64,000 nucleotides of DNA from Corynebacterium sp. 74A. Its GTDB lineage: Bacteria; Actinomycetota; Actinomycetes; Mycobacteriales; Mycobacteriaceae. Below are positions 45,487 through 50,029 of the stretch, piece by piece. Below the pieces are notes generated by a model that saw nothing but the letters and a program-made list of their open reading frames with translations, searched no databases and had not been told where the DNA came from. The stretch covers positions 62,001 to 126,000 of the forward strand of contig NZ_PQMG01000003.1 in NCBI RefSeq assembly GCF_008930665.1. The letters are read 5' to 3'. How positions within the stretch are numbered: position 1 is the stretch's first letter; every line of letters starts with the position of its first letter. The translations under genes and the position numbers were made by a program.

Positions 45487-46659
45487 ATGCGAGTTGGAAT
45501 GATGACCAAGGAGTACCCACCGGAGATTTACGGCGGCGCAGGCGTGCATGTGGCGGAGCTGACCCGCTTCATGCGCACCTTGGTGGACGTCGATGTTCAC
45601 TGTATGGGTGCGCCCCGCGACGAGAAGAATGTGTATGTCCACGGAGTGGATCCCGCGCTGGAGGATGCCAACCCCGCGATCAAGACCCTCTCCACGGGGC
45701 TGCGCATGGCCACTGCCGCGAACAATGTGGATGTGGTGCACTCCCACACCTGGTACTCGGGCCTGGGCGGACACCTGGCGGCGCGTCTTTACGACATCCC
45801 CCATATCGCCACCGCGCACTCCCTCGAGCCGCACCGGCCGTGGAAGCGCGAGCAGCTCGGCGGCGGCTACGAAGTGTCCTCCTGGTCGGAGAAGAACACC
45901 ATGGAATACGCCGATGCGGTGATCGCTGTGTCGGCGCAGATGAAAAACGCCATCATGGAGGCCTATCCGCGCATCGACGAGAACCGTATCCACGTGGTTC
46001 TCAACGGCATCGACCCCGAGCTGTGGCATCCCCGCCCCACCTTCGATGACAACGAGGACTCCGTGCTCCGCGAGCTCGGCGTGGACCCGAACAAGCCCAT
46101 CGTCTCCTTCGTGGGCCGTATCACCCGCCAAAAGGGGGTCGAGCACCTAGTGAAGGCCGCCTCCCACTTCGACGAGGGCGTGCAGCTGGTGCTCTGCGCC
46201 GGCGCGCCGGATACTCCCGAGATCGGCGAGCGCACCGCCACCTTGGTGCGGGAGCTGCAACAGCAGCGCGACGGCGTGTTCTGGGTGCAGGAATTTTTGC
46301 CGAAGCCGAAGATTCAGGAAATCCTCACCGCCTCGGATACCTTCGTCTGCCCCTCCATCTACGAGCCGCTGGGCATCGTCAATCTCGAGGCCATGGCCTG
46401 CGGCAGCGCCGTGGTCGCCTCCGATGTGGGAGGTATCCCCGAGGTGGTCAATGACGGCGTCACCGGCAGCCTCGTGCACTACGATGCCGAGGACACCGAG
46501 GCCTTCGAGCGCGACCTGGCCGCCGCGGTCAATGAGATGGTGGCTGATCGCACTCGCGCCAAGGACATCGGCGAGAAGGGCCGCCAGCGCGCCGTCGCGC
46601 AGTTCTCCTGGGCCACCATCGCCGAGCAGACCATTGATGTCTACCGTTCTTTGATGTAA
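45487..46659 (+). CDS. glgA: GT4 glycosyltransferase GlgA/GlgM type
   Basis: 390 residues from ATG 45487. GT-B fold: N-terminal [17 protein letters not shown] (GAGVH, about 10-25), C-terminal [14 protein letters not shown] (about 200-215) and [18 protein letters not shown] (about 275-295) for the nucleotide sugar. It is about 85 residues shorter than E. coli GlgA. The actinobacterial GT4 enzyme of this locus (GlgM in mycobacteria) makes maltose-1-phosphate from ADP-glucose and glucose-1-phosphate for the GlgE route. Which product is made here cannot be read from sequence. A hairpin with five T residues ends the gene. Confidence 0.93.
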
Positions 46660-46789: not shown

Positions 46790-47545
46790 ATGACCCACTA
46801 CCCCACACACAGCACCCAGCTCGCGCCGGTGGAACGACACACGATTTTTCAAAACTCGCTGATGACCGCACTGCTCGATGGCATTTACGACGGCGACATG
46901 ACAGTGAGTGAGCTGCTGGGGCAGGGCAATTTTGGAATTGGCACCTTCGACGCCCTCGATGGGGAGATGATCATCGTCGATGGCCGGTGCTATCAGGTGC
47001 GTGGCGACGGCACGGCCCGCCCGGCGCGCCTCGACCAGTGCTCGCCGTTCACAGTGGTGACCAACTTTGTGCCGCGCATTAGCGCCCACGCACCGAATGA
47101 CATGTCGCGCAGCGACCTCGGCACCTACATCGATTCGCTCCAGCCGAGCGAAAACTACATGTATGCCGTGCGGATTAGCGGCCAGTTCCACGACGTGTCC
47201 GTGCGCACGGTCACCCGACAGGAAAAGCCCTATCGACCTATGGTGGAGGCAACGGCAGACGATACCGAGATGCATTTTACGGATGTCTCCGGTGTGATCG
47301 GCGGGTTTCGCACCCCCGTCTACGAAAAAGGTATTTCCGTTCCCGGCTGCCACGTGCACTTCATTGATGATGCGCGCAGCCACGGCGGGCATGTGCTGGA
47401 TTTCCGCGTCAAGGACGCGATTATCGAGCTCTGCCCCGCAACGGAGCTGAACCTGCGGCTGCCGCTCTCCTCGGATTTCTCCCACGCCGACCTCGCGCCG
47501 GAGAACCTCGATGAGCAGATCCACACCACGGAAGTAAAAAGTTAA
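46790..47545 (+). CDS. budA: Alpha-acetolactate decarboxylase
   Basis: 251 residues, the normal BudA/AlsD length. The zinc site GCHVHFIDDARSHGGHV (about 183-200) holds the three histidine ligands. The N-terminal region (IFQNSLMTALLDGIYDGDMT and GNFGIGTFDALDGEM, about 20-60) is highly typical. It converts 2-acetolactate to acetoin, a neutral fermentation product. The start has a -10 box 6 nt upstream. It stands between glgA and the GH32-like gene, but no acetoin reductase is close. No signal sequence: cytoplasmic. Confidence 0.94.
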   Translation: MTHYPTHSTQLAPVERHTIFQNSLMTALLDGIYDGDMTVSELLGQGNFGIGTFDALDGEMIIVDGRCYQVRGDGTARPARLDQCSPFTVVTNFVPRISAHAPNDMSRSDLGTYIDSLQPSENYMYAVRISGQFHDVSVRTVTRQEKPYRPMVEATADDTEMHFTDVSGVIGGFRTPVYEKGISVPGCHVHFIDDARSHGGHVLDFRVKDAIIELCPATELNLRLPLSSDFSHADLAPENLDEQIHTTEVKS

Positions 47546-47645: not shown

Positions 47646-49055
47646 ATGAGCCACCGCCCCGAGTTACACGTCACCGCCGAAGAAGGCATTCTTGCGGCCC
47701 CCGCTGGGGTGCTGCTGCACGACGACGTGTGGCACGTTTTCAACCAGTACAAGCCGAGCGCCTCGGCCAGCTCCCGCTGGGGACACCAGGCCTCCCGCGC
47801 CCTGCCCTATGACTGGGACGTATGCGATGATGTGCTCGCCACCCACGGCGACGAGGTCGAGCTGCGCGCCGGCTCGGTGATCCCCGTGGGTAAGGGCATC
47901 GACATCTTCTTTACGGCCGTCTCCGCAGACGCCACCACCATCAAGGTGGCCGAGATCGCCGACGCGGACGCCACCACCGAAACAGTGGCCGATGACATCT
48001 CGCACCTCGATAGGCATGTGGCCAATGTGCACACCGTGGTCTCGGACTGCCACGGCTACTCCCACTTCCGCTCTCCCTGCGTGGTTCCTGATTGGCGCTC
48101 CACGCAACGCGATGATCACCACGGCTGGATCATGCTCGCCGTGGCCGGTTCTTCCGACAACCCCGACATTGTGGTGTTCGAATCCGCCGATCGCCGCGAC
48201 TGGAACTTCGTTGGCCCGCTGCGCTGCGTCGGCACGCCCAGCGGCGTCAGCCACTATAAGCGCATCGTGTCTCCCCGCCTGATTCGTTTGCAGGATGAGG
48301 TAGACGAAAAGATTTATGATGTCTTGCTGTTGACCGTTGAAACCGACGGCCGCGATATCTCCGGCTATCTGGTGGGCACTCTCACCGACTCCGAGTTCAG
48401 CGTGATCACCCCCTTCACCCGCCTCGACCGCGGCCATGACTTCTCGCGACCCCGCAACACCAATGTGGTGACCGGCTTCAACACGGATCCCGCGGCGCGC
48501 TACGCGTCCAGCACCATGTTCGGCCTGATGAACGGGGTGGGTCGCGGTGACGATCCCACCACCCATCTGAGCCTGCAGCAGGAAAACTGGGCCAATTGCC
48601 TCACCCTGCCGCGCCGAGTAACCCTGCAGGGCGGCATCCTCTACCAAACGCCGCGCGCTGGGCTTCCCGACGCCATCCGCGCCTCCGAGCACGCCCGCGC
48701 CTTCATTGCCCGGCTGGATGCCCAGCCGAGCGAGGATGCCGTGGTAGATATCGAGCTTCGCGATGCCACAGGCGCCGTCGGGGCGCGTGTGTCTTATTCT
48801 TCCGATGAGATCTCACTGGATCGCAGCATGAACCCGCACCACGAGGGCAGTGCCCCCGCCGTGGCGGAGCGCAGCAGTGAAGAAACCGAGGCGCTCTCCC
48901 TCATCGTGGATGGCTCCACCGTGGAAGTCTTTGCCGACGGCGGCTTGATCGCCATGGCCTCGCGAGTGTATTTCGATGGCGGCTGCCAGTCCATCACCTA
49001 CACCGCCCACCACGGCGCACGCGTGGAATCGACCATGGAGATCGAGCCGCTCTAA
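47646..49055 (+). CDS. GH32-fold protein lacking catalytic carboxylates
   Basis: 469 residues from ATG 47646. The first 300 residues follow the five-bladed propeller of sucrose-6-phosphate hydrolase/levanase: VWHVFNQYKPSASASSRWGH (about 34-53), GWIMLAVAGSSDNPDIVVFE and SADRRDWNFVGPL are clear. Yet the family's NDPNG reads AAPAG (about 18-22), RDP reads RSP (about 140), and ECP reads VSP (about 215), so nucleophile, transition-state Asp and acid/base Glu are all absent. The C-terminal beta-sandwich (about 360-469, LIVDGSTVEVFADGG) is intact. It is likely a carbohydrate-binding or regulatory pseudoenzyme. A strong terminator follows. Confidence 0.8.
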   Translation: MSHRPELHVTAEEGILAAPAGVLLHDDVWHVFNQYKPSASASSRWGHQASRALPYDWDVCDDVLATHGDEVELRAGSVIPVGKGIDIFFTAVSADATTIKVAEIADADATTETVADDISHLDRHVANVHTVVSDCHGYSHFRSPCVVPDWRSTQRDDHHGWIMLAVAGSSDNPDIVVFESADRRDWNFVGPLRCVGTPSGVSHYKRIVSPRLIRLQDEVDEKIYDVLLLTVETDGRDISGYLVGTLTDSEFSVITPFTRLDRGHDFSRPRNTNVVTGFNTDPAARYASSTMFGLMNGVGRGDDPTTHLSLQQENWANCLTLPRRVTLQGGILYQTPRAGLPDAIRASEHARAFIARLDAQPSEDAVVDIELRDATGAVGARVSYSSDEISLDRSMNPHHEGSAPAVAERSSEETEALSLIVDGSTVEVFADGGLIAMASRVYFDGGCQSITYTAHHGARVESTMEIEPL

Positions 49056-49093: not shown

Positions 49094-49132
49094 GGGCCCG
49101 CACCCCCTGCATACACAAAGGGGTGCGGGCCC
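49094..49132 (+). terminator. Terminator of GH32-like gene
   Basis: GGGCCCGCACCCC / GGGGTGCGGGCCC, a perfect 13-bp stem with a 13-nt loop; T-rich sequence follows after 7 nt. It can also end the minus-strand methyltransferase gene. Confidence 0.8.
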
Positions 49133-49156: not shown

Positions 49157-50029
49157 CTAGTCGCCGACGCGAGCGAAGCGGGTGATGCTGGCGCGAGCGG
49201 TGATCTCCATGCGTTTGGGCAGCCCAGCCACGCGCTCGTTGAGTACATCCGGTTCGATGTGGCGTGCCGAGGGGCTCATGCCGATCTGGGCGGCGATAGA
49301 GGGCTGATCGAGGCTCATCCGGAACTCCACCAACTGCGGCGGCTGCACCGGGACGAGATACTCCGACATCTCCTCGATCAGGCGCTCGGTACTGCCCTGC
49401 TCTACATCGAGAATGCCGAGCGGCTCCCGCAGCTCACTCAGGTGTCCAGGTTCTGCGTTGAGCATCACTACGTTCCCGCCGGGTGCGAGCACACGGGCAC
49501 ATTCCGCGGCATTGTGCGGGGCGAAGATCAGGGTGAGGGCGTGGATGGAGCGATCGAGCAACGGCAGGCGCTCCAAAGCATCAGCGACCACGGCGCCGAC
49601 GCGCGAGTGGGCGTGGGTGAGCTTTTCCGCGGCGGGAATAGAGACGTCGATGCCCACGCCACGGGAATCATCCACCGCATCCAGCGTGTGCGACAAATAG
49701 TAACCCGTGCCGGCGCCGATCTCGCACAAGGCGGGGGCGATATCGTTGCCCACTCCCGCGTCTTCGAGGGCCTCGTGCACGCCTTGAGTCACGGCTTCCA
49801 CGAATGGTGCGTAGTGCCCCTGCGACAAAAAGGTTTCGCGATCTTCCACCATCTGGGCGTCATCGCCATCATGGGCTAGCCGGCCATTCACCGCGAGGGT
49901 GACAAAACCCTCGGCAGAGACCTCATAGCTTCGCCCTGTCGCCGACACGAGGCTGCGGTAGCCATCGTGGGACACCAGCGGGGTGCCGTCCACAGGGTCG
50001 GCGAGGAGGTCACTTACATCATCGAGCAC
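49157..50029 (-). CDS. RlmA-like rRNA methyltransferase
   Basis: 290 residues. Layout of 23S rRNA (guanine-N1) methyltransferase RlmA: a small N-terminal domain (about 1-45), then a Rossmann domain with ALCEIGAGTGYYLSHTL (SAM site, about 100) and GVGIDVSIPAAEKLTHA, then LTLIFAPHNAAECARVLAPG (motif region, about 170-190). The N-terminal domain normally binds zinc through CPxC and CxxGH; here these read DPVD and SATGR, so the finger is lost although the flanking SYEVSAEGFVTL is kept. Modification of the same guanine is likely but not proven. Confidence 0.78.
   Translation of the reverse strand: MLDDVSDLLADPVDGTPLVSHDGYRSLVSATGRSYEVSAEGFVTLAVNGRLAHDGDDAQMVEDRETFLSQGHYAPFVEAVTQGVHEALEDAGVGNDIAPALCEIGAGTGYYLSHTLDAVDDSRGVGIDVSIPAAEKLTHAHSRVGAVVADALERLPLLDRSIHALTLIFAPHNAAECARVLAPGGNVVMLNAEPGHLSELREPLGILDVEQGSTERLIEEMSEYLVPVQPPQLVEFRMSLDQPSIAAQIGMSPSARHIEPDVLNERVAGLPKRMEITARASITRFARVGD

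Follow-up and report, generated by a model that had tools for sequence, protein, structure and literature searches.

GH32p, a genus-wide group of GH32-derived proteins in Corynebacterium with a lost catalytic triad and a refitted active-site region

The window analysed here is a stretch of 64,000 nucleotides from Corynebacterium sp. 74A (contig NZ_PQMG01000003.1, positions 62,001 to 126,000 of the forward strand), and our subject is one of its genes, which encodes a member of glycoside hydrolase family 32 (GH32) with altered catalytic motifs. We use the name GH32p (pseudo-GH32 protein) for its whole orthologous group, in which the window protein belongs to clade A. Of the 201 Corynebacterium genomes sampled, 183 have an orthologue, and in every one of these all three catalytic acids (nucleophile, stabiliser and acid/base) are gone. 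Judged from these sequences, GH32 hydrolysis has almost certainly been lost. With the triad lost and its surroundings refitted, the most likely role is that of a non-hydrolytic binding protein, and we see about an even chance that GH32p is a cytosolic protein of this kind, with a remodelled Arg-rich pocket, in a genus-wide pseudoenzyme group.

As a sequence family, GH32 clearly includes the window protein. Pfam Glyco_hydro_32N matches residues 8-336 (E 6.7e-23, 82.1 bits against a curated cut-off of 22.1) and Glyco_hydro_32C residues 384-458 (E 4.3e-8, 33.8 bits against 21.9). The best single-sequence match among solved structures is the sucrose-6-phosphate hydrolase 7vco (E 1.1e-10); a profile from 50 orthologues matches the same entry at E 2e-28, covering profile positions 3-457. 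A first-pass annotation, made from the DNA letters, had proposed GH32 homology over both domains, and these matches and alignments bear it out; its open reading frame (ORF), coordinates and three substitutions are also as we find them. The ScrB subfamily (TIGR01322) does not include the protein, which scores 88.2 bits against a curated cut-off of 356.4. By homology the fold would be a five-bladed propeller with a beta-sandwich; an AlphaFold2 model built from four sequences reached a mean predicted local distance difference test score (pLDDT) of 40.6, too poor for use. The N-terminus, MSHRPELHVT, shows no hydrophobic leader when judged by eye, in agreement with the signal peptide being reported as absent.

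The GH32 carboxylates act as nucleophile, as stabiliser in the RDP motif and as acid/base, as a passage of PMC6560043 sets out. In alignment with solved GH32 sequences, AAPAG of the window protein falls on NDPNG, RSP on RDP and VSP on ECP, which places A18, S143 and V208 at the three carboxylate positions; lacking the Asp/Asp/Glu triad, the protein would not count as a GH32 enzyme. Across the group, the nucleophile column reads A128 G21 V1 S1 for clade A and A31 D1 for clade B, where the lone D comes from a misaligned N-terminus (L277) whose sequence itself reads GTLEAPAG. The stabiliser column holds S150 T1 and T30 A2, and the acid/base column V148 A1 T1 L1 and F25 Y7, in clades A and B, respectively. 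The question whether all orthologues lack the catalytic residues, which came with the first observation, is thus answered in the affirmative for all 183, far more often than chance would allow, as opposed to 14 of 14 active-type rows that keep the three acids. These rows, picked for having the motifs, represent 13 distinct proteins (G058 was entered twice), 11 of them from Corynebacterium.

The orthologues were delimited with the window protein as query, which matched 191 of the 201 genomes with an E value of 0.001 or below; GH32 proteins of matching genomes were then assigned by locus, motif and score. Clade A occurs in 151 genomes, clade B (about 30-38% identity to the window protein in BLAST matches) in 32, other GH32 proteins only in eight, and ten have no match. 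In one genome (G092) the gene extends to the contig end. A family scan matched 14 of 201 genomes at E 1e-5, all Corynebacterium, with no match in 30 other sampled genera. A class scan, in which scoring was restricted to each genome's four best first-look candidates, matched 11 of 394 genomes at E 1e-10, namely two Corynebacterium and nine others; seven of the nine carry NDP[NY]G, RDP and ECP, and the remaining two (L155 and L157) have RDP and ECP and a first motif unmatched by the pattern used. No GH32p-like sequence outside Corynebacterium was seen in these family and class samples. The orthologue alignment found no relative on viral contigs; active-type alignments found one viral GH32 contig, and matches on genome contigs were limited to two active-type Lachnospiraceae loci.

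In a tree of 64 rows, including 32 of the 151 clade A and 15 of the 32 clade B members (47 of 183), the two clades form a single clade (support 100/100) that stands apart from the active-type GH32s and has a stem length of 1.97 changes per column; support is weak at the root and at some deep nodes. The best reading of this tree is that the triad was probably lost once, before the present carriers diverged. A recent or local loss is ruled out by the census and the tree. An active-type GH32 in the same chromosomal slot is not favoured as the direct ancestor, since the intact slot proteins L165 and L194 cluster with active-type GH32s and not with GH32p, though that node has a support of only 90/57.

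GH32p is under purifying selection. For the window genome and G188, the closest relative, the ratio of nonsynonymous to synonymous substitution rates (dN/dS, Nei-Gojobori) of this gene comes to 0.070, which provides the test for what the first-pass annotation had asserted; the same genome pair gives 0.067 for glgA, 0.039 for budA, 0.087 for rlmA and 0.026-0.188 for nine neighbours. In clade A, 33 pairs give a median of 0.098 and values from 0.036 to 0.411, some of them raised because stop-to-stop frames include sequence before the start. With its catalytic motifs lost and its gene kept under selection, GH32p is a GH32 pseudoenzyme. A decaying pseudogene or a sequencing artefact is hardly credible: the frame is interrupted in at least one of the 183 genomes (G133), but no internal stop occurs among the matches listed in the Corynebacterium genome search, dN/dS is about 0.1 and the new residues are fixed.

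The changes reach well beyond the triad. We called a column group-specific when its residue occurs in at least 93% of both clades and in at most two of the 13 active-type proteins, using 127 clade-A and 29 clade-B rows, and E6, A20, R44, E70, A75, R211, T230, D265, R268, R270, N317 and G339 qualify. R211, directly after the former E-C-P, is present in 182 of 183 orthologues (one K), where the 14 active-type rows have N8 D4 S2. R268 is equally frequent (one S; A14 in active-type rows), R270 is invariant (Q13 E1) and R44 occurs in 174 (G8 H3 Y2 Q1). D265, E6 and E70 are found in 182, 180 and 178 orthologues at columns that are mixed in the active-type rows (one D, one E and no E, respectively). 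R268 and R270 are housed in a segment that reads F-Y-A-P-Q in most active-type Corynebacterium enzymes and mostly F-[TS]-R-P-R in GH32p. We take this segment to lie near the active site because the Tyr of the FYASK motif is discussed, along with the Arg of RDP, as tuning the acid/base in a section of PMC3713406. Active-type invariants have been replaced in nearly every orthologue at the second Asn of NDPNG, the Ser of SG (which survives in one row) and the Tyr-Ala of FYA, and the first Asn of NDPNG is replaced in every clade-B row (32) and in 127 rows of clade A. The loss of these invariants and the fixation of new Arg and acidic residues indicate, at the level of sequence, a pocket whose fructose end was rebuilt and not kept.

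This rebuilding weakens the interpretation first given to the protein, namely a fructoside or glycan sensor that lost hydrolysis and kept the binding of fructose or sucrose. Enzymes with neutralised acids but otherwise intact subsites can keep their substrate. The first-pass annotation had held that the substrate-side pattern and the beta-sandwich are kept, and this stands in part: WHVFNQYKP, RWGH and the C-terminal domain are all present, with W45, H47 and Q34 retained, and the first Asn remains in 24 of 151 clade-A rows. However, the R of RWGH is itself group-specific, Arg now occupies positions that hold A, Q and N/D/S in active enzymes, and clade B lacks the Arg of RDP in addition to the replaced Asn, Ser and Tyr-Ala residues. 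We therefore do not uphold retained sugar binding, and regard a fructoside sensor as unlikely.

Under our preferred interpretation, that of a non-hydrolytic binding protein, an invertase-like ancestor would have lost all three carboxylates once. The old active-site surroundings were refitted, as the sequences show, with conserved Arg (R44, R211, R268, R270) and acids (E6, E70, D265). The propeller pocket might recognise a small, probably anionic ligand such as a sugar phosphate or nucleotide sugar, with the signal passed to a partner or with GH32p itself acting as a ligand buffer. That a binding function has been retained in the remodelled cavity is likely. The new residues may together form one anion-binding pocket, and we offer an anionic ligand as a tentative guess. 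Several points weigh against this interpretation. Clade B has V27 A5 at the Arg of RDP, and the two clades may thus not share one ligand; 18 of the 201 genomes do without GH32p; and the neighbours vary by species, with no partner or ligand turning up. With the structural model poor, it is from motif positions that we infer a common pocket for the new Arg residues, and mutual pairing of the four Arg with the three acids could simply fill that pocket.

Such pairing is the basis of another interpretation, in which GH32p would serve another protein as scaffold or regulator, its pocket filled by a salt-bridge core and binding no ligand; the combined basic and acidic gains could make such an internal ionic network. 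The closest case described so far is that of the plant defective invertases: a section of PMC3713406 describes these GH32 proteins, such as tobacco Nin88, as unable to split sucrose and with a presumed regulatory role, Nin88 being an indirect activator of active invertases. They differ from GH32p in that, by the same section, they keep the triad and have an altered sucrose-binding couple, whereas GH32p lacks the whole triad and does not fit this plant type. In a match list that is complete in this range, 74 genomes have a PF00251 match at E 1e-44 or better. GH32p is present in 69 of these 74, which leaves 114 of its 183 genomes without a strong GH32 match to regulate; this E value is a score threshold and not a residue check (residues were read in the 13 active-type proteins), and weaker or broken matches, such as three frames in G116, fall below it. 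The window genome is among the 114, and its one PF00251 match is the GH32p gene, so that helping an active invertase cannot be the role there. As a general role it is ruled out by the gene content of the 114 genomes. Together with the lack of a constant co-directional neighbour, this makes a scaffold improbable. An active-type GH32 (NDPNG, RDP, ECP) lies in the same stretch as GH32p in two genomes (G091 and G058), and four others (G023, G115, G149 and G199) have, by coordinates and score, a strong PF00251 match about 3 kb from GH32p.

GH32p might instead be a new enzyme that performs a different reaction in the remodelled cavity, with E6, E70 and D265 as catalysts. All three are group-specific acidic positions that hardly vary, and cases of pseudoenzymes whose catalytic residues have migrated are given in a part of the review PMC10211241, whose text does not contain "glycoside hydrolase", "glycosidase" or "chitinase". 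Yet none of the three sits at the site of a lost catalytic acid, and their meeting in the cavity has no structural backing, which leaves this reading a low probability. A broader formulation, a genus-specific family in which an invertase cavity has become a receptor for, or an enzyme on, an anionic metabolite with a role outside glycogen, is possible, although we would not call it probable.

Compared with ScrB and other beta-fructosidases (7vco, 1uyp/1w2t, 3pig), GH32p shares Q34, W45, P210, Y241, D261, W315, R323, D422 and E427 with all 13 active-type proteins and P144 with 12 of the 13 rows, but differs in the absence of the triad from every orthologue and in the FYAPQ segment. Four other degenerate Corynebacterium GH32s (L147, L188, L189 and L169) have likewise lost the nucleophile Asp (to G or A). 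Unlike GH32p, they fall inside the active-type tree group, perhaps as one group (support 56/61), and keep the acid/base Glu. L188, L189 and L169 (G013, G077 and G123) adjoin budA and have MAP[NH]G for NDPNG, while RDP (FRDP) and the Glu (WEYP) seem kept. L147 (G358) has LEGVSA instead of NDPNG, no RDP and an intact WERP, in a genome that also has GH32p (L139). Among the papers listed in our literature search, none combined a GH32 term with "pseudoenzyme" and none dealt with GH32p, apart perhaps from the C. variabile genome paper, a section of which counts one GH32 protein, possibly a different one, as a candidate glycoside hydrolase (PMC3219685).

The genomic setting is listed in Table 1. Most sampled Corynebacterium species have GH32p at the same chromosomal site, where it is nearly always followed by a convergent rlmA-like gene, and the upstream gene on the same strand is glgA, budA or an O-methyltransferase-like gene (OMT). 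We measured 160 loci, two of them active-type (L153 and L187). Going upstream, the first gene recognised is glgA at 111 loci, with a median gap of 32 bases, budA at 24 and OMT at 17; at 8 loci there is none. The window's glgA is a clear match to glgA_Coryne (570 bits, cut-off 302). A glgA_Coryne match at E 1e-60 is absent from 24 of 25 GH32p genomes tested, the 24 having been chosen because their locus is without glgA and the 25th being the window genome; conversely, glgA is present in 14 of 16 tested genomes without GH32p (16 of the 18 such genomes were tested). GH32p is therefore no accessory of glycogen metabolism, its presence being uncoupled from that of glgA, and the glgA/budA setting that had been noted at first proves incidental.

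Genomes without GH32p fill the glgA-rlmA slot in various ways. It is empty in G047 and G106, contains budA alone in G056, budA with an active-type GH32 in G113 and G174, and a frame-split version in G163, where the GH32 (L248) runs over two frames between budA and rlmA as a broken gene or assembly error. In G013, G039, G077 and G123 the slot holds none of the queried genes, and G080 has rlmA and no glgA. In G153 (L232, 1627-3156) a GH5-family protein with cellulase and GH5 C-terminal domains and a leader-like N-terminus is encoded between glgA and budA, and five loci (L233-L237; G034, G069, G099, G102 and G001) have a gap of about 2 kb at the same place.

The rlmA-like product matches 23S rRNA G748 methyltransferase models below cut-off (MyrA 156 bits, cut-off 625) and, being that far below, is probably not such a resistance enzyme. 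The inverted repeat between the two convergent genes is a possible shared terminator; it is missing from our hairpin scan, whose rule takes loops of 3-8 only.

Table 1. Features of the GH32p locus, in window positions
Feature	Position	Strand	Basis
glgA (TIGR02149; start set at model beginning), further upstream, inconstant partner	45487..46659	+	
budA (acetolactate decarboxylase), upstream neighbour, inconstant partner	46790..47545	+	
GH32p coding sequence (469 aa)	47646..49055	+	ORF, domain matches, orthologues
L-A-A-P-A-G (16-21), equivalent to [L/I]-N-D-P-N-G; nucleophile Asp replaced by Ala18	47691..47708	+	alignments
R44-W45-G46-H47; W and H retained from GH32, R44 group-specific	47775..47786	+	
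R142-S143-P144, equivalent to RDP; stabiliser Asp replaced by Ser143	48069..48077	+	alignments
V208-S209-P210-R211, equivalent to E-C-P-N/D; acid/base Glu replaced by Val208, R211 gained	48267..48278	+	
H-D-F-S-R-P-R (264-270), equivalent to H-x-F-Y-A-P-Q; D265, R268, R270 gained	48435..48455	+	
C-terminal beta-sandwich domain (Glyco_hydro_32C match, residues 384-458)	48795..49019	+	
Perfect 13-base inverted repeat, 13-base loop, then T-rich stretch	49094..49132	.	by eye
rlmA-like 23S rRNA methyltransferase, convergent, nearly constant neighbour	49157..50029	-	

In most Corynebacterium species, family-based annotation would enter GH32p among the GH32 glycosidases, and predictions of sugar use that build on it may be wrong. 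GH32p is also a clean example from nature of a protein that lost its complete triad and was then retained across a genus. Because genetics is good in Corynebacterium (C. glutamicum), the function of GH32p is directly testable.
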